Positions 37,208 through 57,936 of a stretch of 57,936 bases of DNA are shown here, piece by piece. A program made the position numbers and the translations under genes. Each line of letters opens with the position of its first letter. The stretch's first letter is position 1. This DNA comes from Deltaproteobacteria bacterium (GTDB lineage Bacteria; Desulfobacterota; Desulfomonilia; Desulfomonilales; Desulfomonilaceae). Location of the stretch: positions 1 to 57,936 of the forward strand of contig JAJYDQ010000017.1 in NCBI GenBank assembly GCA_021777225.1, given 5' to 3'. A model generated the notes under the pieces. The model did no database searches and had not been told where the DNA came from. It saw nothing but the letters and a program-made list of their open reading frames with translations.

Positions 37208-37523
37208 TTTATTTTTCCTGTCAGTTGAAAGAGATTCAAACTGAAACTTCTGAATCTTAAGTCCAATAGATCTTTATATTGTATAGCATATTGTTACAGG
37301 CGCTGACTCGAAGCGCTGTAAAAACTACCTGGAAATAATTAATTACGGATAGAGTTTTGTCAAGCTGCGTGTAGCATGGTGTGGGTTACAAATAGAAATT
37401 GAACCGCCCGTATCGTGGGTGTAAGTTAGGTATCCTTAGACTATTTTTTTGCCATTGTTTAATATGGCGTGTGGACCACGCTCCTCTTCCATCTGTACTG
37501 TTTCCCAATGGGAGGCGTTCTCA
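37208..37523. other. Divergent intergenic region between dnaJ and the hybrid kinase
   Basis: This 316-base AT-rich gap holds promoters for leftward dnaJ and the rightward kinase. I see no CIRCE element (TTAGCACTC-N9-GAGTGCTAA) and no HspR-type inverted repeat. A GGGAGG site for the kinase is at about 37510-37515. An in-frame upstream start at 37449 lacks a ribosome binding site. No small gene is evident. Confidence 0.4.
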
Positions 37524-40286
37524 ATGCAGGATCAAGAGAAAACCAGAGATCAGCTTATTGAAGAATTGAATGAGACGCGGCGCAAACTTGCTGAAGTCGA
37601 GGCTAGTCAGCATTCTTCCAGACAAGGCGAACAACATACCCTTGAGAGTGAAAGCCAATTGCGACTGGCTTTAGAAGCCGCTCGTGTTGTGGTTTGGGAT
37701 TGGGATTTGAAAACCGGCAGGGCTATCTGGGAGGAAACTTACACCCGTATTTTGGGATATGATCCAAATGAGCTGGATCCCGGCGTTCAAACATGGAAAA
37801 GAGATATCCATCCAGACGACTGGGGGAAAGTGTCGGAGGCCCTGAATAAACATCTCGCGGGTCGACTTCCTTCTTTCGTAACAGAATATAGGATTCGGAA
37901 CAAGGCCGGCCAATGGATTTGGATTCAATCCCGGGGCAAGGTGGTGGAATATGACAAAGACGGTAAACCGCTGAGAATGAGGGGAACTACAATTGATGTA
38001 ACGGAACTTAGGCGGGTCGCAGAGGAACTTAAGAGGAAAACAGAGGAACAGGACCTTCTTCTGAATACTATAGATACTCAGATCTGGTATCTCACAGATC
38101 CGAAAACATACGGACTGGTAAACCAGTCTCGCGCCGATTTTCTTGGAAAACGACGTGAAGAAATTGAAGGCAAACAGCTTGATGATTTCTATAGCCACGA
38201 TGTGGCCGCTGTTTGTGAGGTCGGTAACGCTGAAGTTTTCCAAACCAGGCGTACTGTCTATACTGAAGAATGGATCCCGAATGCGGCGGGAGAACCAAGA
38301 TTAATATCAATCACAAAAACTCCAAAGCTCGATGAACACGGTAAGGTTGAATATGTTGTGTGCTCCGGCACGGACATTACCGAACGTAAGCGCTTAGAAG
38401 AAGCTCTACGTTTCAGTGAAGAGCAAAAGACGGCCATCTTAAATGGAATCACCACTAATATCGCATTCGTAAACGACAAACTTGAAATACAATGGGTCAA
38501 CAAGGCTAGTGCGGAATCGGTAGGGCGACAAAAGGAAGAAATGATTGGTGTGACGTGTCACTCATTTTGGGGTAATCCGGAACGTCCATGTAAAAATTGC
38601 CCTACCGCGAAAGCTTTCCAAACCGGGCAGTCACAAAAAGCAATTGTGATTACGCCTGACGGAAGAATTTGGGATGAAAGAGGGGAACCGGTATTCAATG
38701 ATAGCGGAAATCTAATAGGTGTCGTGGAAGTGGCGCAAGACATAACCGAACGTAAGCGCTTAGAAGAAGCTCTACGTGAGAGCGAACAGACTCTCAACAG
38801 GATTCTGACGGCTTCACCGGTAGGAATTGCGTTTGTGAGTTCTGATAGAAAATTAGGGTGGGCCAATAAAACTTACCTTGAGCTTTTAGGTTATGACACG
38901 GTTGAAGAGGTCAAGGACTTATCAGTCAGGTTGTTTTATGCGTCTGAAGAGGAATTTGATAGAGTTGGAACTCTGATATCCTCATTTTGTCCCAAGGTGG
39001 AGCCTGCTGTCACAGACACGATCTTGAAACGGAAAACCGGGGAAACCTTCGACGCCCTTGTTCGTGTCAACTCTTTCGATCCGAAGGATATAACCAAGGG
39101 GTTCGTTACGACTGTTCAGGACATCAGTGATAGAAAAAAGGCGGAGAACGAAAAGATAGCGCTGCAGGCTCAGCTTTTCCAATCCCAGAAGATGGAATCG
39201 CTTGGCACTCTGGTCGGTGGCATAGCCCACGATTTCAACAATATGCTTCAGATTATCATTGGCTATTCCCAGTTTTTAATGGATTACCACAAAGAGGGAG
39301 ACCGTGGCCACTGTGATCTTGAGGCCATAATTGAAACCAGCCATGAAGCCGCTGAACTTGTCACGAAACTCCTGGCTTTTGGGCAACAGGCCCAGACCGT
39401 ACCCACTGAGCTTGATCTAAATGATAGAATCAGGGATCTGTCCACTGTAATATCCCGGACTCTTCCACATATAATACGATTGGATCTGGATTTGACAAGC
39501 AGACCAACAATTATCCTTGCGGATAAAGGAGAAATGGACCAGCTTTTCATGAATCTCGCCATTAACGCTTCAGAGGCCATGCCTGACGGTGGAGATCTCA
39601 AGATCAGAACATCAATTGTAAGCCTGGATGAAGAATACTGCAAGGCGCATCCTGGAGCCAAACCGGGCGATCATGTAATGGTGTCTGTTAGAGATACCGG
39701 GCGAGGCATGGACGAGGAAACCAAATGTCGCATATTTGATCCATTCTTTTCCACTAAACAAAGAGGAGCAACAAGGGGAACCGGTCTTGGGCTTTCAGTC
39801 GCAAGAGGTATCACTCAGCAACGAGGCGGTCATATAACCTGTGAGAGCGAACCGGGTAAAGGCACAGAGTTCAAAGTTTATTTCCCCTCGATTGATTCAA
39901 AAGATCAACCAATGGAACCCAAAATGATTTTGGTTGTGGAAGACAACGATCGAGTCGCGGAACTTGAAAGAAGGGCCCTGGAAAGCTGCGGTTACAAAGT
40001 AATTGTAGCGACCAATGGCAAAGAGGCAATCGACATATTTCAGACCAGAAACAATGAAATATCATTGGTTCTGCTTGACCTGATTTTACCGGAGAAAAGC
40101 GGGAGAGACTGTTTGATGGATATGATCACCATTGATCCATCGGTGAAAGTGTTGATAGCAAGCGGCTATTCTATGGAAGGCGTATTAAAAGAAGAGATTA
40201 CACCGCTTGTTAAGGGATTTGTCCGCAAGCCATTTGTAATTACCGATCTGATTAACACCGTTCATGGCGTGTTGGGCAATGCCTAA
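37524..40286 (+). CDS. Hybrid histidine kinase with four PAS domains and receiver
   Basis: The 920-residue soluble protein opens with a coiled coil (~1-40), followed by about four PAS domains: PAS1 ~45-165 with PAC, PAS2 ~190-300, PAS3 ~310-425 carrying C-K-N-C-P, and PAS4 ~430-550. HisKA has the phosphoacceptor His in GGIAHDFNNM. A HATPase_c domain (RGTGLGLSVARG-like G2) and a C-terminal receiver (Asp in LVLLDLILPEKSG) complete it. No membrane helix is seen, so it is a cytoplasmic sensor. The start at 37524 follows GGGAGG. The PAS2-PAS3 and PAS3-PAS4 joints are encoded by a 33-base perfect repeat. Its kinase core is strongly similar to the kinase at 53334-55610. No output regulator is adjacent. 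Confidence 0.92.
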   Translation: MQDQEKTRDQLIEELNETRRKLAEVEASQHSSRQGEQHTLESESQLRLALEAARVVVWDWDLKTGRAIWEETYTRILGYDPNELDPGVQTWKRDIHPDDWGKVSEALNKHLAGRLPSFVTEYRIRNKAGQWIWIQSRGKVVEYDKDGKPLRMRGTTIDVTELRRVAEELKRKTEEQDLLLNTIDTQIWYLTDPKTYGLVNQSRADFLGKRREEIEGKQLDDFYSHDVAAVCEVGNAEVFQTRRTVYTEEWIPNAAGEPRLISITKTPKLDEHGKVEYVVCSGTDITERKRLEEALRFSEEQKTAILNGITTNIAFVNDKLEIQWVNKASAESVGRQKEEMIGVTCHSFWGNPERPCKNCPTAKAFQTGQSQKAIVITPDGRIWDERGEPVFNDSGNLIGVVEVAQDITERKRLEEALRESEQTLNRILTASPVGIAFVSSDRKLGWANKTYLELLGYDTVEEVKDLSVRLFYASEEEFDRVGTLISSFCPKVEPAVTDTILKRKTGETFDALVRVNSFDPKDITKGFVTTVQDISDRKKAENEKIALQAQLFQSQKMESLGTLVGGIAHDFNNMLQIIIGYSQFLMDYHKEGDRGHCDLEAIIETSHEAAELVTKLLAFGQQAQTVPTELDLNDRIRDLSTVISRTLPHIIRLDLDLTSRPTIILADKGEMDQLFMNLAINASEAMPDGGDLKIRTSIVSLDEEYCKAHPGAKPGDHVMVSVRDTGRGMDEETKCRIFDPFFSTKQRGATRGTGLGLSVARGITQQRGGHITCESEPGKGTEFKVYFPSIDSKDQPMEPKMILVVEDNDRVAELERRALESCGYKVIVATNGKEAIDIFQTRNNEISLVLLDLILPEKSGRDCLMDMITIDPSVKVLIASGYSMEGVLKEEITPLVKGFVRKPFVITDLINTVHGVLGNA
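38379..38777 (+). repeat. 33-base direct repeat at two PAS-domain joints
   Basis: The same 33 bases occur at 38379-38411 and 38745-38777, 366 bases (122 codons) apart and in the same reading frame. Each encodes T-E-R-K-R-L-E-E-A-L-R at the junction that follows a PAS-associated C-terminal motif. Identity at silent positions shows recent duplication or gene conversion, one PAS unit in length. Confidence 0.9.
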
Positions 40287-40434
40287 TATAACCTCACAGT
40301 GCGCTTCCCGGGCCCAGCGTGCAGAGTAAATCAAAAGGGCTACAAAGATCCGCTTGAAGCCGGAGAAATTCGTCTTGCCAAAACGGCGTCGCAAGGCTTA
40401 TATTTAATAAAAGGGTTAATAAACCAGATAAACC

Positions 40435-41283
40435 ATGATTATTGATTGTCATACTCACCTGCTCCCACGTCAGGCGCAACAGGACAGATCAGGATTTGTG
40501 GCGACCGACCGGGCCTTCGGATCACTCTACGCATCATCAAAAGCCTGCATAGCGTCTACTGATGATATTATCCGCTATCTGGACACGTCAGGGATCGACA
40601 AAGCGATTGTTTTTGGATTTCCCTGGGAAGACTACGACACCGCAAAACAAAACAATGACGAGATTTGGGAATTCTACCAGAGTTATCCGGATAGAATTAT
40701 CCCCTTTGCGACCTTTTCCCTGGATCAGAGAGACCTGGCTTACAAAGAAAGCGAGCGCACCCTTTCCGCAGGCTTTGCCGGTCTTGGTGAGTTTTCCATG
40801 TATCAGGTGGGCTGGAACCTGGCTGATTTTGAGGCGCTAAGGCCGTGCCTGACCATGGCGTGCGATAGGCAGGTACCGGTAATCATCCATGTAAACGAAC
40901 CAGTTGGTCATCGCTATCCCGGGAAGATTTCCGTTGACATTCGAGCCTTGTTCAAGACCATAAGGAATCACCCTAATCTGGATATAATCCTGGCCCATTT
41001 CGGGGGAGGGTTCTTCATATACAGCCTGATGCCGGAGATCGGTCCAACTATGAAGAGGGTTTATGTGGACACCGCCGCAGCCCCATTCCTTTACGACAGT
41101 AGAATATTGACGGCTTCCATTACTGCGCTTGGGAAAGATAACGTGCTTCTTGGCACAGACTTTCCCCTTCTTGGTATTTCGAGATATCAGAGGATGCTGG
41201 ACGAGGCTGGAATCAACGGGCGCCTACGAGACAAAATATTGGGCGCCAATATTCTTGAAATTCTGGAACGCAGATTACACTAA
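40435..41283 (+). CDS. Amidohydrolase-2 family metal-dependent hydrolase
   Basis: The 282-residue TIM-barrel protein has the N-terminal metal motif D-C-H-T-H (residues 4-8), a histidine in VPVIIHVNEP, a further His in DIILAHFGGG and a late Asp in LLGTDFPLLG. This is the amidohydrolase 2 (PF04909) arrangement used by decarboxylases and hydrolases of aromatic or small cyclic acids. The substrate is not evident. It starts 148 bases after the kinase and ends 55 bases before the convergent SAM hydrolase. No ribosome binding site stands out beyond AAAGGG upstream. Confidence 0.88.
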   Translation: MIIDCHTHLLPRQAQQDRSGFVATDRAFGSLYASSKACIASTDDIIRYLDTSGIDKAIVFGFPWEDYDTAKQNNDEIWEFYQSYPDRIIPFATFSLDQRDLAYKESERTLSAGFAGLGEFSMYQVGWNLADFEALRPCLTMACDRQVPVIIHVNEPVGHRYPGKISVDIRALFKTIRNHPNLDIILAHFGGGFFIYSLMPEIGPTMKRVYVDTAAAPFLYDSRILTASITALGKDNVLLGTDFPLLGISRYQRMLDEAGINGRLRDKILGANILEILERRLH

Positions 41284-41337: not shown

Positions 41338-42132
41338 TTAATCCGCGATATTTTCCCGCCGCCAGGTTACTTTTACCCGCGCCCCTATTCCTACTCCGAG
41401 ACTATCAGCGGCGGATCTCTTGTTTATAGCAATTTCCAGCAGTCCAAAGCTATTGATGAGGGCTAGCGGCTCGTGGTCCGGAACATCACTGAAAGTTCTG
41501 TTCAGTTTCTTTATGTTCAAAGATCCAAGACTTATCTCATCTACCGGCCTTTCCAGCATATCGGCCCCTATATTTACGGACAGGTTCCCAAATCTGTCAA
41601 TGTGAATCACTTTCCCTTCTATGCCCTGCTCTAACTTAATGACACGAGGCAAATAGATCCGTTCAGGGTCAGAAATTATGTGGCCTATTTCGCTAAAATC
41701 AGTCCCTTTGGAAAGATGAGCCGCGATCGGGGCGAAAATATCTCTTCCATGAAACGTGGGATGCGGCTTAATGGCGATCAGGCGCGGGTTTTCGATCTCG
41801 CGAATCTCGAAGGAATCATCGTTTGAATATATTAAAGAGAATACTCCGTTATCCGGCCCAACAAAATAATGTCCGGAACTCCTCAGCACTATTCCGCGTC
41901 GATCGGAACCGACGCCCGGGTCGACCACGACCAGATGTATGGAGCCAACCGGGAAATACCGAAAAAAACCATTGACAACGAGCGCCGCGTCTAACGACGA
42001 AAAGGGTTCGATGCTGTGAGTGATGTCAATGAGAACAGCTTCGGGGTTTATGCCGAGAATCATCCCCTTCATCTGGGCCACAAAGCCGTCCCGGTCGCCG
42101 AAGTCCGAAGTCAACGTTATGATTCCAGCCAC
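41338..42132 (-). CDS. S-adenosylmethionine hydrolase (DUF62/SAM hydroxide adenosyltransferase family)
   Basis: The 264-residue protein has the family N-terminus ITLTSDFGDRDGFVAQMKG, then VLIDITHSIEPFSS and VVVDPGVGSDRRGI, with a C-terminal beta domain (GKVIHIDRFGNLSVNI). Members split S-adenosylmethionine to adenosine and methionine using a water-derived hydroxide, without a chlorinase-type loop that would be expected in fluorinases. Why cells degrade SAM is uncertain; control of methylation or salvage has been proposed. It lies 145 bases downstream of the hydrolase-ligase operon on the same strand and may be separate. Confidence 0.92.
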   Translation of the reverse strand: MAGIITLTSDFGDRDGFVAQMKGMILGINPEAVLIDITHSIEPFSSLDAALVVNGFFRYFPVGSIHLVVVDPGVGSDRRGIVLRSSGHYFVGPDNGVFSLIYSNDDSFEIREIENPRLIAIKPHPTFHGRDIFAPIAAHLSKGTDFSEIGHIISDPERIYLPRVIKLEQGIEGKVIHIDRFGNLSVNIGADMLERPVDEISLGSLNIKKLNRTFSDVPDHEPLALINSFGLLEIAINKRSAADSLGVGIGARVKVTWRRENIAD

Positions 42133-51887: not shown

Positions 51888-52289
51888 TGATGTTCACTCC
51901 CTGAAAGATCTTGTATCTCTATGATCTGAACGAGAATGAGAAGGTTTCCTTATCGGGCAAGAATGACTTATGCCCTTGAATCAAGGTGTGCTGTGTTTTT
52001 GTCAAAAACTCCCCTAAAACAGGATCTCAGTCACTCTGAGGACCAGTTCTAATAAACTCTGTTAATGGTCACTTTGAATTTCCGGCCGATCTCAACCTTT
52101 TTATTTCCGCATGGAACAGTAGTATGAAACGGACATTAGTGTCTAGACAAAAAGCACCTTTGTTGAAGGAAGTTGAACTTCCACGATGAGCGAAACTCTT
52201 CAGGTCTAAATCACGTAGTAGATTTTGGCTGTTGTGGGCCTATTGCTTATTTGATAATTGCGATTTAACCTTAAGTCAGGGGAATGACC
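51888..52289. other. Divergent intergenic region with a perfect 15-base palindrome
   Basis: This 402-base gap separates the leftward ligase-transporter block from the rightward binding-protein gene. It contains GGAAGTT-G-AACTTCC (52168-52182), a perfect inverted repeat about 108 bases before the binding-protein start, and a GGGCA/TGCCC hairpin (51955-51975). No ORF with a ribosome binding site is seen, and neither hairpin has a terminator T run. Confidence 0.5.
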
Positions 52290-53315
52290 ATGAGACACCA
52301 TTTTCGTTCGCGAAAGTCACGTCCGTCTCATCGACTGAGCGTTGGAGTTGAATTAATTATTTTCTTGTCATGGCTCAGCATTCTCTTTCCTTGCCTAACC
52401 CTAGCCACTGAGAGCGTCCCTGAGAAGGTTTATAAAATTGGCGTCTCCGAGTGGACGGGCTATCCTGATAGTGTTAAGGGATTCAAAGACGCAATGGCCA
52501 GAGGCGGGTTTGTTGTGGGCCGGAACGTGGTTTACCTGGATCAAAGCTGTGGACTGAACCCGTCAAGGCAGCGGGAGATCGCTGAATCTTTCAAAGAGGC
52601 TGGAGTGGATCTGGTGTATTCATTGACCACTCCTGGCACAGTGATCATGAAACAGATCATGCCTGAAAACACACCCATTGTTTTTTCCATAGTGACATAT
52701 CCGTCTGATTGCGGGCTTATCGAATCCTTCGATTATTCCGGGAACAATCTGGTGGGAACCAGCAATTATGTGGAAATAACCAATTACATCAAGTTGCTCA
52801 AAATTGTGCTTCCACAGACTCGGTCTCTCGCTATTTTTCGACGAAACAAGGAGCCAAATTCAAAAATCCAGGCCGCCAATATGATTCGTTTGGCCAAAAA
52901 GGAAGATATTCATGTAATCGATACACCTCTTGAATCGTTAGATGAAGTACGCACTGCCGCATTAAAACTGGTCGGCAAAGTGGACGTGTTCATGACAACT
53001 ACGGATACGCTTATGCAGAGCGGCGGAGAACAAGCTCTCATTGAGGTCTCTTTAGACAAAAAGGTCCCAATCTTAAGTTCCAATAAAACAGGCGTTGAGC
53101 AGGGCTCGACTTTCGGCATAGTGGCTGATTTTTATGTTCTGGGCGAAATGTCCGGAGAGATGGCTGTAAGAATTTTAAAGGACAACACTAGCCCCGAACG
53201 ACTACAATCCAGGATTCAAGAACCACCATTGACCTTGATAAATAGAAAAAGCATAAAACTACTCGGCATTAACATTCCAGAAGACAAATTACAAAATGTT
53301 CAATATGTTGAATAG
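52290..53315 (+). CDS. ABC-type periplasmic substrate-binding protein (ABC_sub_bind, PF04392)
   Basis: The 341-residue product has a basic N-terminus, a hydrophobic export segment (about 18-40) and a type I binding-protein fold of the ABC_sub_bind family (IGVSEW... GFKDAMARGGFVVGRNV; VDLVYSLTTPGT; PILSSNKTGVEQGS; LGEMSGEMAVRILKD). Relatives bind tryptophan or other amino acids. The ATG at 52290 is placed seven bases after AGGGG, whereas the ATG at 52284 is only one base away from it. No permease or ATPase follows; instead a sensor kinase starts 18 bases later, so this protein may present ligand to that kinase. Confidence 0.88.
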   Translation: MRHHFRSRKSRPSHRLSVGVELIIFLSWLSILFPCLTLATESVPEKVYKIGVSEWTGYPDSVKGFKDAMARGGFVVGRNVVYLDQSCGLNPSRQREIAESFKEAGVDLVYSLTTPGTVIMKQIMPENTPIVFSIVTYPSDCGLIESFDYSGNNLVGTSNYVEITNYIKLLKIVLPQTRSLAIFRRNKEPNSKIQAANMIRLAKKEDIHVIDTPLESLDEVRTAALKLVGKVDVFMTTTDTLMQSGGEQALIEVSLDKKVPILSSNKTGVEQGSTFGIVADFYVLGEMSGEMAVRILKDNTSPERLQSRIQEPPLTLINRKSIKLLGINIPEDKLQNVQYVE

Positions 53316-53333
53316 GCGTCTGAGAAAATTGTC

Positions 53334-55610
53334 ATGAGAATTGTGTCAAAGGTTGTCCTATTAGTAAGCCTTTCGGTCCTAATTGTGATGGCGGTCGTGG
53401 GCCGGGTCGCCTTCCAACAGAGCAAAGAGGCGTTACATAGGGAAATTGACAATTTATTGACTTCCAACCTGGATTCCGCGGCGACTGACATTGATGAAAA
53501 CTCATCGGATACCAAAAAAACTTCTGAAATCATTGCCCGTAATCCCGCCATTTCAAGGGCGCTGTTTCTTGATGTGAGCATTGGAGTGAATCAGATTTTA
53601 AACCAGATGCTAGAAATATATCCTTTCTACAATTACATCATGATCGTAACGCTTGATGGGGATGTGTTCGCTGTCACCACAATAGACAAGCACGGGAACA
53701 AGATCTCAGGGGAGGAGTTGTTAGGCCTGAATGTTAAGGCGCCGATTTTTCTGGAACGGCCGATCGCTCCCCAAACTGTTGTTGGCGACCCAACCCCGGA
53801 TCCTTATCTGTCATTGCTCGGAATTAAACCAAAGATAAGTCAATGGTTTGTCACCCCAGTTTTTAAGGGGACAGCCCAACTCGGATGGGTGTTGCTCTCA
53901 TATGACTGGCAGGATGAGCTAGCCGCTCTTTTAGCTAGTGTGCGCCGGGAATTGGTTGCCGTTGACAATCCTGTGACCCATGTCGCTCTTGTTAATGAAA
54001 AGGGGGAAATATTCGCCGAGCCTCACTTTTCCAACAGAAAACTAATCAGGTCTCCTGATGTGGTCTGGAAAGAAAAACAACTGTCGTTCGGAAAAGCTAA
54101 CATGAAACTTGTCATTGCCAGCGACAGGACGAAGATCTACGAACCCCTCATAAGAATGAGGAATTATTTTGTTGGCCTCATAGTGGTGTCGTCGATATTC
54201 TTGATGGGCATTCTTTATTTTATCCTTAAAAGGACATTTTTGGAAAAGCTGAAGTTAATACATGAGGGATCTAAAGCTTTTATGTCTGGCGATTTGTCAT
54301 ACCGATTACCTCCCATTGGTCGTGACGAACTGGGATTACTGGCGTCTACATTTAATGAAATGGGGCAGTCTTTACAAGACGCCTCACACAAACTCGAACT
54401 CAGAGTCGAGCGACGCACCGCTGAATTAAAAATCGCCAACGAAAAACTGCTACTTGAAATTGCTCAACATAGACAGACGGCCGAAGAGCTAAAAGAAAGT
54501 GAGGAGAAATATCGTATTATCTTTTCAAAAGAAAAGGATTGTATAGCCCTCATTGATCCTGACACGTTTGAAATCCTCGACGCCAATGAAGCCTCCGAAA
54601 CGCTTTGGGGTTATTCCAGGCAGGAATTACTTGGCATGAATACCCTGGATCTCACCATTGAACCGGAATCTTGTCGTGAGTCCATTTATGCGCTCTCCAG
54701 TCTGAATGGCGGGGCAATAGTTGCTGGGCGACACAAGAAAAAAAATGGTGAGATCGTTCATGTGGAAATATCAGCCGTTCCTATTACTTTGAAGGGCAGG
54801 ACGTTAATATGTCAGATAGTGCGAGATGTTTCCGATCGTTTGAGGGCTGAGCGGGAAAAACAGGAGCTTCAGGCTCAACTTTTTCAATCTCAAAAGACAC
54901 TGGCCCTGGGGACTCTTGTTGGAGGCATAGCCCATGATTTCAACAACATGCTCCAGGTCATCATTGGCTATTGTGATCTTCTGCTGACTCGTGTGAACGT
55001 GGACAAATCGGCTCACAAAGACCTCCAAACCATCATTAAGACGGCTAAAGGGGGAGCTGACCTTGTAAAGAAGCTTCTCCTGTTCGGTAAAGAGGCCCCA
55101 ATTCGCCGGGCTTCTCTTGATCTTAATGACCAGATTCGACAGTTGTTGGTTTTAATGCCTGGCGCTCTTCCTCAAAAGATAGATCTCCAAATTGACTTAA
55201 CCAATGAACCGACCGTGATCCATGCCGACCCGAACCAAATGGATCAGATGGTCATGAACCTCGCTGTAAATGCGGCAGAGGCAATGCCGGATGGTGGACA
55301 ACTCAAGATTGCGACGAAGATTGTGCGTTTGGATGATGAATATTGCAGGTTCCACCACGGAGTGAAACCTGGCAAGTATGTTGGTTTACATGTTTCGGAT
55401 AACGGACGAGGAATGGACGAGGGAACACTTTCGAGAATATTTGAACCATTTTTCTCAACAAAGGAAAGAGGCTCTACAAGGGGAACCGGACTTGGCCTCT
55501 CTGTTGTCCAGGGAATCGTGGAAAAACATGGTGGTTACATAACCTGTGAGAGTGAACCCGGGAAGGGAACCGAATTTAGAATATATTTTCCAGTTGTCGA
55601 AACTGAATGA
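53334..55610 (+). CDS. Membrane sensor histidine kinase (periplasmic sensor, HAMP, PAS)
   Basis: The 758-residue protein has membrane helices at about residues 8-24 and 283-303, enclosing a Cache-like periplasmic sensor. HAMP (about 305-358) and a coiled coil follow, then one PAS domain (about 390-505). HisKA has the phosphoacceptor His in GGIAHDFNNM. HATPase_c has NAAEAMPDGG and RGTGLGLSVVQG motifs. There is no receiver. Its core aligns closely with the hybrid kinase at 37524-40286 (both share the LQAQLFQSQK and GTLVGGIAHDFNNMLQ stretches), showing common descent. It follows a binding-protein gene and is overlapped by a broken kinase fragment (ATGA at 55607-55610). Confidence 0.92.
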   Translation: MRIVSKVVLLVSLSVLIVMAVVGRVAFQQSKEALHREIDNLLTSNLDSAATDIDENSSDTKKTSEIIARNPAISRALFLDVSIGVNQILNQMLEIYPFYNYIMIVTLDGDVFAVTTIDKHGNKISGEELLGLNVKAPIFLERPIAPQTVVGDPTPDPYLSLLGIKPKISQWFVTPVFKGTAQLGWVLLSYDWQDELAALLASVRRELVAVDNPVTHVALVNEKGEIFAEPHFSNRKLIRSPDVVWKEKQLSFGKANMKLVIASDRTKIYEPLIRMRNYFVGLIVVSSIFLMGILYFILKRTFLEKLKLIHEGSKAFMSGDLSYRLPPIGRDELGLLASTFNEMGQSLQDASHKLELRVERRTAELKIANEKLLLEIAQHRQTAEELKESEEKYRIIFSKEKDCIALIDPDTFEILDANEASETLWGYSRQELLGMNTLDLTIEPESCRESIYALSSLNGGAIVAGRHKKKNGEIVHVEISAVPITLKGRTLICQIVRDVSDRLRAEREKQELQAQLFQSQKTLALGTLVGGIAHDFNNMLQVIIGYCDLLLTRVNVDKSAHKDLQTIIKTAKGGADLVKKLLLFGKEAPIRRASLDLNDQIRQLLVLMPGALPQKIDLQIDLTNEPTVIHADPNQMDQMVMNLAVNAAEAMPDGGQLKIATKIVRLDDEYCRFHHGVKPGKYVGLHVSDNGRGMDEGTLSRIFEPFFSTKERGSTRGTGLGLSVVQGIVEKHGGYITCESEPGKGTEFRIYFPVVETE

Positions 55611-55888
55611 TTATTGCTGAAGAGTTGAAGGAGACGCGCCTCAAGCTTTCTGAGTCTCAGAACGCTCAATCCAATCTGGTTGACGTTGCCGAACTCGAGC
55701 AAACGATAAAGGACCTAAAACTAAAGACACAGGAACAGAAACTTCTTCTGAATACTATAGATATTCAGATCTGATATCTCACCGATCCCGGGACCTATGG
55801 ACTGGTCAACCAGTCTCGAACCGATTTCATCAGGAAACCACGAATTCACGAGACAATTCGGTCAGGGATATTGTATTTTGTGAAATAG
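55607..55888 (+). pseudogene. Broken fragment of a PAS histidine-kinase gene
   Basis: From the ATG overlapping the kinase stop, a frame of 55 codons ends in TGA at 55772-55774, exactly where the hybrid kinase at 37524 has Trp (TGG) in DTQIWYLTDP. The frame then continues with YLTDPGTYGLVNQSRTDF, matching the hybrid kinase, before degenerating and ending in TAG at 55886-55888. The matching DNA (about 55741-55835 against 38055-38150) is nearly identical. All catalytic domains are missing. The first part (EELKETRLKLSE) resembles the coiled N-terminus of the same kinase, so PAS1 is deleted or the source was another paralog. Read-through as Sec is rejected because the relative has Trp and nothing functional follows. 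Confidence 0.85.
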
Positions 55889-55949
55889 TCTGGGTTACGT
55901 TCTATGGGAAAAACCCTATATTTACTGTTGTCGCGGTCCGAGCAGGCAT

Positions 55950-56717
55950 GTGATAAATCGAGATATTCTTTCCATGATCTTTGATTCTGTTTCTTCTGTG
56001 ATCTTCCCGGAGGTTTGTTATTTTTGCGGAGCGGGGAGTTATGGCACAGGCTCTGTAATTTGTCCTGAGTGTAGAGATTCCGTTAGGTTGGTATCTCAAC
56101 CTTTTTGCGATTTATGCGGCCTGCCTCTGGACACTTTCGACGACTGCCATTCCTTGTTGTGTGGAAGATGTCTTGCAAGCCCCCCTCCTTTTGACAAGGC
56201 CCGATATGGGGTTTACTATGAACAATCTGTTCGCGCGGCTATCACGAGGCTGAAATTCAATTCATCCCTATTTAATATTCGACCTGTCGCTGAACTTCTT
56301 ATAGAAGCCTATAAGACCCATTATTCGAATGAGACGTTTGACACTATTGTTCCTGTTCCGGTTCACCGAAAACGTCTGGTGGGGAGAGGTTTTAACCAAG
56401 TCATAACGATTTCGGAAAGACTTTCAAGGGAAATCGGAATTGTCCTTGATCGAACATCGCTGGCTAAGAGTCGCGACACAGAGCCTCAGGTAGGACTTTC
56501 CCGTGCAAGGAGACTTGTAAATCTCAAGAATGCTTTTCAGGTTTGCGGTCCGGCACGGATTGCAAACAAGCGAGTTTTGATTGTTGATGATGTCTCAACT
56601 ACAGGAGCGACGGTGTCCGAGGCCGCTAAGGCTGTCAGGAAAGCTGGGGCCTCTTATGTCGCTGTAATGGTAGTAGCTTTAAGATCAAAGACCCAACCGG
56701 CGAAATTGGACATCTGA
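55950..56717 (+). CDS. comF: ComF-family phosphoribosyltransferase-like protein
   Basis: The 255-residue product has an N-terminal zinc-ribbon-like cysteine set (CYFCG, CPEC, CDLCG, CGRC over residues ~22-72). The C-terminal phosphoribosyltransferase fold has the PRPP loop VLIVDDVSTTGAT near residues 208-220, after TIVPVPVHRKRLVGRGFNQ. ComF proteins are linked to DNA uptake or recombination, with a poorly defined biochemical role. The start is a GTG at 55950; an ATG at 55974 is also in frame and neither has a strong ribosome binding site. It is not preceded by other competence genes here. Confidence 0.9.
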   Translation: MINRDILSMIFDSVSSVIFPEVCYFCGAGSYGTGSVICPECRDSVRLVSQPFCDLCGLPLDTFDDCHSLLCGRCLASPPPFDKARYGVYYEQSVRAAITRLKFNSSLFNIRPVAELLIEAYKTHYSNETFDTIVPVPVHRKRLVGRGFNQVITISERLSREIGIVLDRTSLAKSRDTEPQVGLSRARRLVNLKNAFQVCGPARIANKRVLIVDDVSTTGATVSEAAKAVRKAGASYVAVMVVALRSKTQPAKLDI

Positions 56718-56826
56718 ATTACTTTAGCTTTGGAATGTTTGAAGAATATCGTGTTATTTGGAAACGGCTCAACCAAAGTTTGGAATGGTTGTGCTTAATG
56801 AAATGTTTTTCAAGGAGGCTTGATTA

Positions 56827-57936
56827 ATGGCTCTAAAAACTCCCGAAGAGTTCGAGGCTCGACTACGCGATAAAAAACCAAGAGTATTCATGAATGGAAA
56901 AAGAGTGGAGAATATTCTTGAAAATCCTAACACCAGAACTGTGGTTGAATCAAATAAGGCGAGCTACAGATGGGCGCTGGATCCGGAGTATTCAAAGATT
57001 ATGAGTTGCTATTCTCCGCTAATAAACGAGACAGTCAATCGTTACACTCATGTCAGCGCCAGCGTTGAAGATCTTGTGTCGAAAGCGGAGGCTGGAACAT
57101 TTACCGCCGAAAACCTTGGCACCTGCATTTACAGGTGTGTGGGTTATGACGCGTTCCATGCGTTGGCTTCGACAACGTGGGAAATGGATAGAGACCTGGG
57201 CACACAATATCACCCCAGATTTATTGAATACCTGAAAATGGTACAGCGGGAAGACCTCTCAGTAGCCGGAGCATTGACAGAACCCAGAGGACACAGGATG
57301 AAACGTGCCATCGATTGGCCTGATCCTTATCTCTCTCTGAAAATAGTAGAAAAGAACTCGGACGGCATCGTTGTGAGAGGGGCAAAGATCAATATCAGCG
57401 GCGCTTACGCGTGTGACGAGCTGGTAGTGCTGCCTCAAAACGCCAGAACGGAAAACGAGACCGATTACGCTGTGGCGTTCGCTGTGCCATCCGACGCTGA
57501 AGGTATTACTTATGTTTGTCAATATTCGCCCTACTCCGCTGAAAGAGAGTCGGCCGACCACATTGATGAACTTGGCAATCCATTGTTCGGGCAAAGAGAA
57601 ACAGCGATGGTGGTTTTCGACAATGTTTTCGTCCCGTGGGACCGTGTATTCCATTGCGGCGAAACAAAGTATTCCCTGAATTTTGTAGTCAGGTTCGCCA
57701 GGACTCATCGCATGACTTGTGGAGGCACATGTAAGGTCGGTTTTATGAATCAGATTATAGGGGCCTGCAAACTTATCCAGGAGTATAAGGGCCTTGAAGA
57801 AGTACCGCATATCAACGATGAGCTGACTGAAATGGTAGTTCTGAGGGAAACCGGACGGGCTTGTGGCCTTGCCGCAGCAAGGCTGGGCACTGAAGATCCA
57901 GTAGGATCAGGCGTGTTTCTCCCCGATGAACTGATG
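56827..57936 (+). CDS. 4-hydroxybutyryl-CoA dehydratase/vinylacetyl-CoA isomerase-like protein (partial, 3' end missing)
   Basis: The frame runs 370 codons to the window edge with no stop. The ATG follows AAGGAGG (56812-56818). It belongs to the HpaB/AbfD acyl-CoA-dehydratase family: the cluster-ligand pattern Cys100-x3-Cys104 (TCIYRCVG) matches the two N-terminal cysteines of 4-hydroxybutyryl-CoA dehydratase. A His294 then Cys298 and Cys302 (THRMTCGGTCKVG) lies where that enzyme has His and a third Cys seven residues apart. The flavin and substrate segments (GALTEPRGHR; GAKINISGAYACDEL) are present. It probably acts on a CoA-bound hydroxyacid. The extra residue between His and Cys makes the exact substrate uncertain. 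Confidence 0.8.
   Translation, partial: MALKTPEEFEARLRDKKPRVFMNGKRVENILENPNTRTVVESNKASYRWALDPEYSKIMSCYSPLINETVNRYTHVSASVEDLVSKAEAGTFTAENLGTCIYRCVGYDAFHALASTTWEMDRDLGTQYHPRFIEYLKMVQREDLSVAGALTEPRGHRMKRAIDWPDPYLSLKIVEKNSDGIVVRGAKINISGAYACDELVVLPQNARTENETDYAVAFAVPSDAEGITYVCQYSPYSAERESADHIDELGNPLFGQRETAMVVFDNVFVPWDRVFHCGETKYSLNFVVRFARTHRMTCGGTCKVGFMNQIIGACKLIQEYKGLEEVPHINDELTEMVVLRETGRACGLAAARLGTEDPVGSGVFLPDELM

Follow-up and report, generated by a model that had tools for sequence, protein, structure and literature searches.

The scrap of about 230 bases that lies between the sensor-kinase gene K2 and a comF-like gene is best read as the relic of a third, lost sensor-kinase gene, here called X, and was most likely left by chromosome rearrangement. 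Specifically, X would be a dead member of the K1/K3 kinase family that has been cut at both ends and whose left end has been fused to K2, a reading to which we assign a probability of roughly 0.7. The DNA analyzed, referred to as the window, is the whole 57,936-nucleotide contig C142 of a 4.04-Mb draft genome (97.6% complete), and its relevant features are collected in Table 1. Two kinases of this genome serve as references: K1 (920 residues, intact, with kinase core and receiver), which lies in the window and was the relative named in the preliminary description, and K3, an intact PAS hybrid kinase of 942 residues on contig C122. Among the genomes compared, the own genome is designated G000, and the other K1 genes were taken from G003 and G006, which belong to the same genus. 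The phosphoribosyltransferase downstream is ComF-like.

Table 1. Window coordinates of the kinase genes, the parts of remnant X, the two joints and the downstream gene
Feature	Positions	Strand	Remarks
K1: multi-PAS-HisKA-HATPase-receiver kinase	37524-40286	+	Intact
K2: Cache-HAMP-PAS-HisKA-HATPase sensor kinase, 758 aa	53334-55610	+	Frame intact; no C-terminal receiver
Left joint: from the end of K2 homology (~55593) to the start of K1/K3 N-terminal homology (~55610-55617)	55590-55616	+	ATGA 55607-55610 lies inside
Remnant X, 55-codon ORF: coiled-coil start, linker and first PAS residues	55607-55774	+	TGA stop 55772-55774; no ribosome-binding site seen
Best conserved part of remnant X	55724-55827	+	88/104 identical to K1, 79/104 to K3
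Continuation of the X frame after the TGA	55775-55888	+	Recognizable PAS homology to ~55845; TAG 55886-55888 at end
Right joint: unmatched sequence from the last kinase homology to the start of the sequence shared with G002/G003 upstream of comF	55846-55945		
Phosphoribosyltransferase with double zinc ribbon, comF-like	55950-56717	+	

When the DNA of the fragment was searched against its own genome, the best conserved part matched K1 at 38037-38140 (85%, E = 1.4e-26) and K3 (78%, E = 1.2e-15), and these were the only matches with E < 1e-10. Three further rows, with E values from 0.29 to 1, were treated as chance. Given the low E values to K1 and K3, the fragment is real kinase sequence and not a chance resemblance; the preliminary description of a broken kinase 5′ region, with a stop inside the frame, holds. 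A second block of similarity covers the start of the N-terminal coiled coil (∼55617-55653 versus K1 codons 12-24), and between the two blocks the first PAS domain of K1 has no counterpart. The reported change of a K1 TGG to TGA was found at 55772-55774, and the decay reported downstream of it was also seen: the frame stays open beyond the TGA as far as the TAG, and kinase similarity is lost past ∼55845. No domain was recognized by Pfam in a 93-residue reading of the fragment. The frame is disabled, the catalytic parts are lost and similarity to an intact kinase is significant, as in histidine-kinase pseudogene remnants. The remnant presumably has no function of its own. Readthrough of the TGA by selenocysteine insertion or other recoding was considered and rejected, in that the 78 bases 55773-55850 fold no better than their shuffles (z = 0.15) and the frame closes after a further 37 codons, before any kinase part is reached. 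The corresponding stretch of K1 folds better than its own shuffles (z = −2.33) and was taken as coding sequence. Scans of 55300-56100 gave two promoter hits (1.6 expected) and one terminator hit (1.0 expected); every hit was on the minus strand.

At the left joint both partners appear shortened. Similarity of K2 to other kinases stops near 55593, directly after the YFP at the end of the HATPase domain, and the C-terminus follows five residues later. Pfam found no Response_reg domain in K2, which lacks the C-terminal receiver of a hybrid histidine kinase. A C-terminal receiver is present in all six of the other full-length kinases examined (K1, K3, the K2-like kinases of G002, G006 and G012, and a further kinase of G006); the K1 genes of G003 and G006, each broken off by the end of its contig, were not counted. 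On the X side of the joint, K1 and K3 both begin with MQDxEKTRDQLI preceded by a GGAGG-like site, and X begins inside the K2 end at residues matching LIEEL, so that its first ∼10 codons and the GGAGG-like ribosome site are missing. The shortening of both partners suits an out-of-frame fusion in which K2 runs to a chance TGA. Thus, although the overlap of the K2 stop with ATG 55607 was found exactly as the preliminary description had it, the ATGA is probably a fusion scar, judging from the sequence of the two ends.

A different account of the same junction, which we consider unlikely but worth weighing, is that a receiver-less K2 and X formed a native overlapping operon coupled through the ATGA, and that X was later stopped and truncated on its 3′ side only. 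In its favor, ATGA overlaps are a common arrangement in coupled genes, and homology between X and K1 resumes within ∼10 bases of the ATG. It would leave K2 as the exception to the six receiver-bearing kinases, and X as a gene with neither a ribosome site nor the first codons common to K1 and K3. Moreover, an X-like gene was absent behind the K2-like kinase at all three K2-like loci of other genomes. Note that the closest relatives of K2 are ∼42-43% identical to it across the sensor half and are for this reason homologues, not proven orthologues; K2 may have lacked a receiver from the start.

The preliminary description took the fragment for a recent copy of K1, 17 kb away, and called 55741-55835 nearly identical to 38055-38150, silent sites included. 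The similarity is real, but the near-identity is not: 77 of 95 bases agree (81%), and identical runs reach at most 22 bases. Over the 40 codons 55706-55825, fragment and K1 differ at 7, 4 and 14 sites in codon positions 1, 2 and 3, and at 6 of 15 four-fold sites. For comparison, between the local K1 and its syntenic G003 counterpart there are 54, 42 and 131 differences in these positions over 754 codons, and 62 of 290 four-fold sites differ; between K1 and K3, 59 of 121 third positions are changed. Among 72 overlapping 40-codon windows of K1 from G000 and G003, the mean number of differences was 12.3 and the maximum 25, which is the value for the fragment. With 25 differences and 14 of 40 third positions changed, divergence of the fragment lies between the species level and the K1-K3 level. 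Of the 16 differences in the 104 best conserved bases, 10 fall in third positions (p = 0.016 against equal shares); by this excess most of the divergence would have arisen while X still worked as a gene, which suggests that X was functional through most of its separate history.

Nor is the fragment closer to the local K1 than to other copies. It matches the K1 genes of G000, G003 and G006 at 88, 87 and 88 of 104 bases, respectively, an about equal distance from each, and these genes match one another at 98-100 of 104 over the same region. At the 12 sites where all three K1 genes agree against the fragment, K3 carries the K1 base at six, the fragment base at three and a third base at three. At the eight sites that vary among K1 genes, the fragment matches G000, G003 or G006 alone once each, two of them four times and none once. 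The site patterns show no lean toward the local copy. Maximum likelihood trees group the three K1 genes together to the exclusion of the fragment, with support of 84/84 (137 columns) and 76/74 (104 columns). An approximately unbiased (AU) test on these few columns did not reject a clade of fragment and local K1 (p = 0.164 and 0.233, respectively), an outcome that counts weakly against a third gene; the argument is carried by the distances.

We therefore regard it as improbable that the fragment arose by recent duplication of K1 or through conversion still going on among the kinases of the window. The 85% identity over 104 bases, the 22-base run with the local K1 (13 and 14 bases with those of G003 and G006) and a sister relation left standing by the AU test speak for a duplicate; the equal distance to three genomes, a divergence equal to the between-species maximum, the even spread of single-genome matches and the missing first PAS domain speak against it. 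Conversion is countered by the kinase cores. K1 and K2 are identical at 459 of 714 positions with no run longer than 14 bases, compared with 492 of 716 (run of 20) for K1 and K3 and 491 of 717 (run of 17) for K2 and K3. The K1 and K2 cores are less alike than either is to K3 and show no exchange tract, and the idea that the two full kinases exchange sequence is not supported. Of the fusion, duplication or conversion in progress originally proposed, what stands is a probable fusion scar, with K2 lacking a receiver and X its 5′ end; recent duplication of K1 and conversion are not supported. As a separate observation, the K3 core (L013) and the K2-like core of G002 (L035) share an identical run of 41 bases (505 of 707 identical overall), possibly a local conversion or transfer.

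The preliminary description had also proposed looking in related genomes for an intact third kinase. Using the 93-residue reading, matches were obtained in three of 60 relatives (the own genome, G003 and G006; E up to 0.001) and in six of 395 phylum genomes, the own one included (E up to 1e-5). All matches outside the fragment are long open kinase frames of 472 to 1244 codons with 39-66% identity, and the 472-codon frame, in G006, runs up to a contig end. No intact X orthologue was found among the 60 relatives or the 395 phylum genomes, so that X as a former full gene is something we infer. A further search for intact X gave nine loci, of which two are K1 orthologues (88 and 87%) and six lie at 25-36%; inspection covered the remaining one (L043, 59%), which proved to be a PAS relative and not X.

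Around the right joint, sequence shared with G003 starts at window position 55940 and sequence shared with G002 at 55948. G002 and G003 have ∼40 further upstream bases in common that are not clearly shared by the own genome. When the right-joint sequence was compared with its own genome, nothing else was found below E 0.25. By Pfam, the gene upstream of the comF-like gene encodes an AMP-binding enzyme in G002, a MaoC-like protein in G003 and a SAM hydroxide adenosyltransferase in G006; the same adenosyltransferase was read by eye from translations in G001, G004 and G005. In the window this gene lies at 41338-42132, ∼13.8 kb from the phosphoribosyltransferase. The intervening DNA holds a phosphotriesterase-family gene and an AMP-binding gene, both of which also occur beside comF in G002, together with a branched-chain amino-acid-type ABC transporter, a second AMP-binding enzyme, a substrate-binding protein, K2 and the remnant. 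In place of the K1 that the own genome and G003 carry on the DnaJ side, G002 and G006 have there a K2-like kinase preceded by a homologue of the substrate-binding protein; in G003 the DnaJ-K1 side is as in the own genome up to the end of the G003 contig. The region around comF and K1/K2 has been rebuilt several times.

Several side observations concern the same region. The site just upstream of the comF-like gene (55846-55945; loci L015-L020) has differing neighbors in several genomes of the genus and is a point of repeated rearrangement. The DnaJ-amidohydrolase stretch (window 37378-40435; L034:882-11299; L035) is a site of kinase turnover, and in G006 a PAS-only ORF between a kinase and the DnaJ gene (L034:2315-3079) is perhaps another kinase remnant. 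The K1 of G006 (L038 versus window 37387-38410) shows 89% DNA identity, whereas the comF-like protein of G006 is just 69% identical; other genes of G006 are likewise more distant than K1, which there lies in a different neighborhood. Transfer or contig contamination is possible for this gene. The window contains no tRNA genes. A mobile element at the joints was considered and rejected, as 52000-57000 contains only short repeats of 14-18 bases, none tellingly bracketing the fragment.

Both joints were seen in one assembled contig of a draft genome in 153 contigs, and an assembly chimera whose joints are absent from the cell is one alternative. We consider this very improbable: the joints carry no long identical repeat by which contigs could be misjoined (the longest identity to K1 is 22 bases), the right joint has no other own-genome match below the E value given above, and reading frames are coherent on both sides.

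In the order of events that we reconstruct, X, a sister of K1, would once have stood beside K2. An internal deletion or recombination would have joined the K2 end to X at about its codon 10 (∼55593-55616), in a different frame. K2 most likely lost its receiver in this fusion and has since terminated at the TGA within the ATGA, a stop that the fusion would have supplied, which would make the overlap accidental. A further rearrangement next to comF would have removed the rest of X (right joint, ∼55846-55945), and X would have gained its stop codon before or after these cuts. K2 remains intact and should work as a plain membrane sensor kinase, passing phosphate to a separate response regulator and not to its own receiver.

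It is hardly credible that the 55-codon ORF is instead a functional small coiled-coil protein coupled to K2: the overlap of its start codon with the K2 stop makes reinitiation possible, but the ORF ends at a nonsense codon within what is a PAS domain in K1 and has no Pfam hit, and the same truncated form, which the preliminary description had named as the finding that would speak for a small protein, is present in none of the other 59 relatives and leaves a conserved small protein unsupported. We give just as little credence to a variant in which fusion turned a hybrid K2 into a plain kinase and translation of the ATGA-coupled remnant continues, yielding a coiled-coil peptide that would associate with K2 or K1 to tune them.

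Beyond annotation, the fragment carries little weight. It offers a small example, from an uncultured lineage, of possible receiver loss in sensor kinases and of kinase gene turnover at points of rearrangement, and a caution that an ATGA overlap read as an operon may be a fusion scar. The K2/X case is ordinary turnover of two-component genes. According to a study of myxobacterial two-component genes (PMC4603909), insertions and deletions alter gene order, remove domains and form pseudogenes there, and the few relocations of these genes are tied to breakpoints. Compared with the histidine-kinase pseudogenes and domain losses catalogued there (PMC4603909), the turnover here is of the same kind, in other organisms; unlike those cases, the remnant is joined to a neighboring kinase without a receiver. 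X resembles K1 and K3 in its N-terminal coiled-coil start and the start of the following PAS domain (85% and 78% DNA identity, respectively, in the matched part), but K1 and K3 are intact, with kinase core and receiver, and K1 carries an additional PAS domain ahead of the matched one. K2 resembles the Cache-HAMP-PAS hybrid kinases of G002, G006 and G012 in its sensor half and kinase core; those kinases differ from it in having a receiver and no X remnant behind them.
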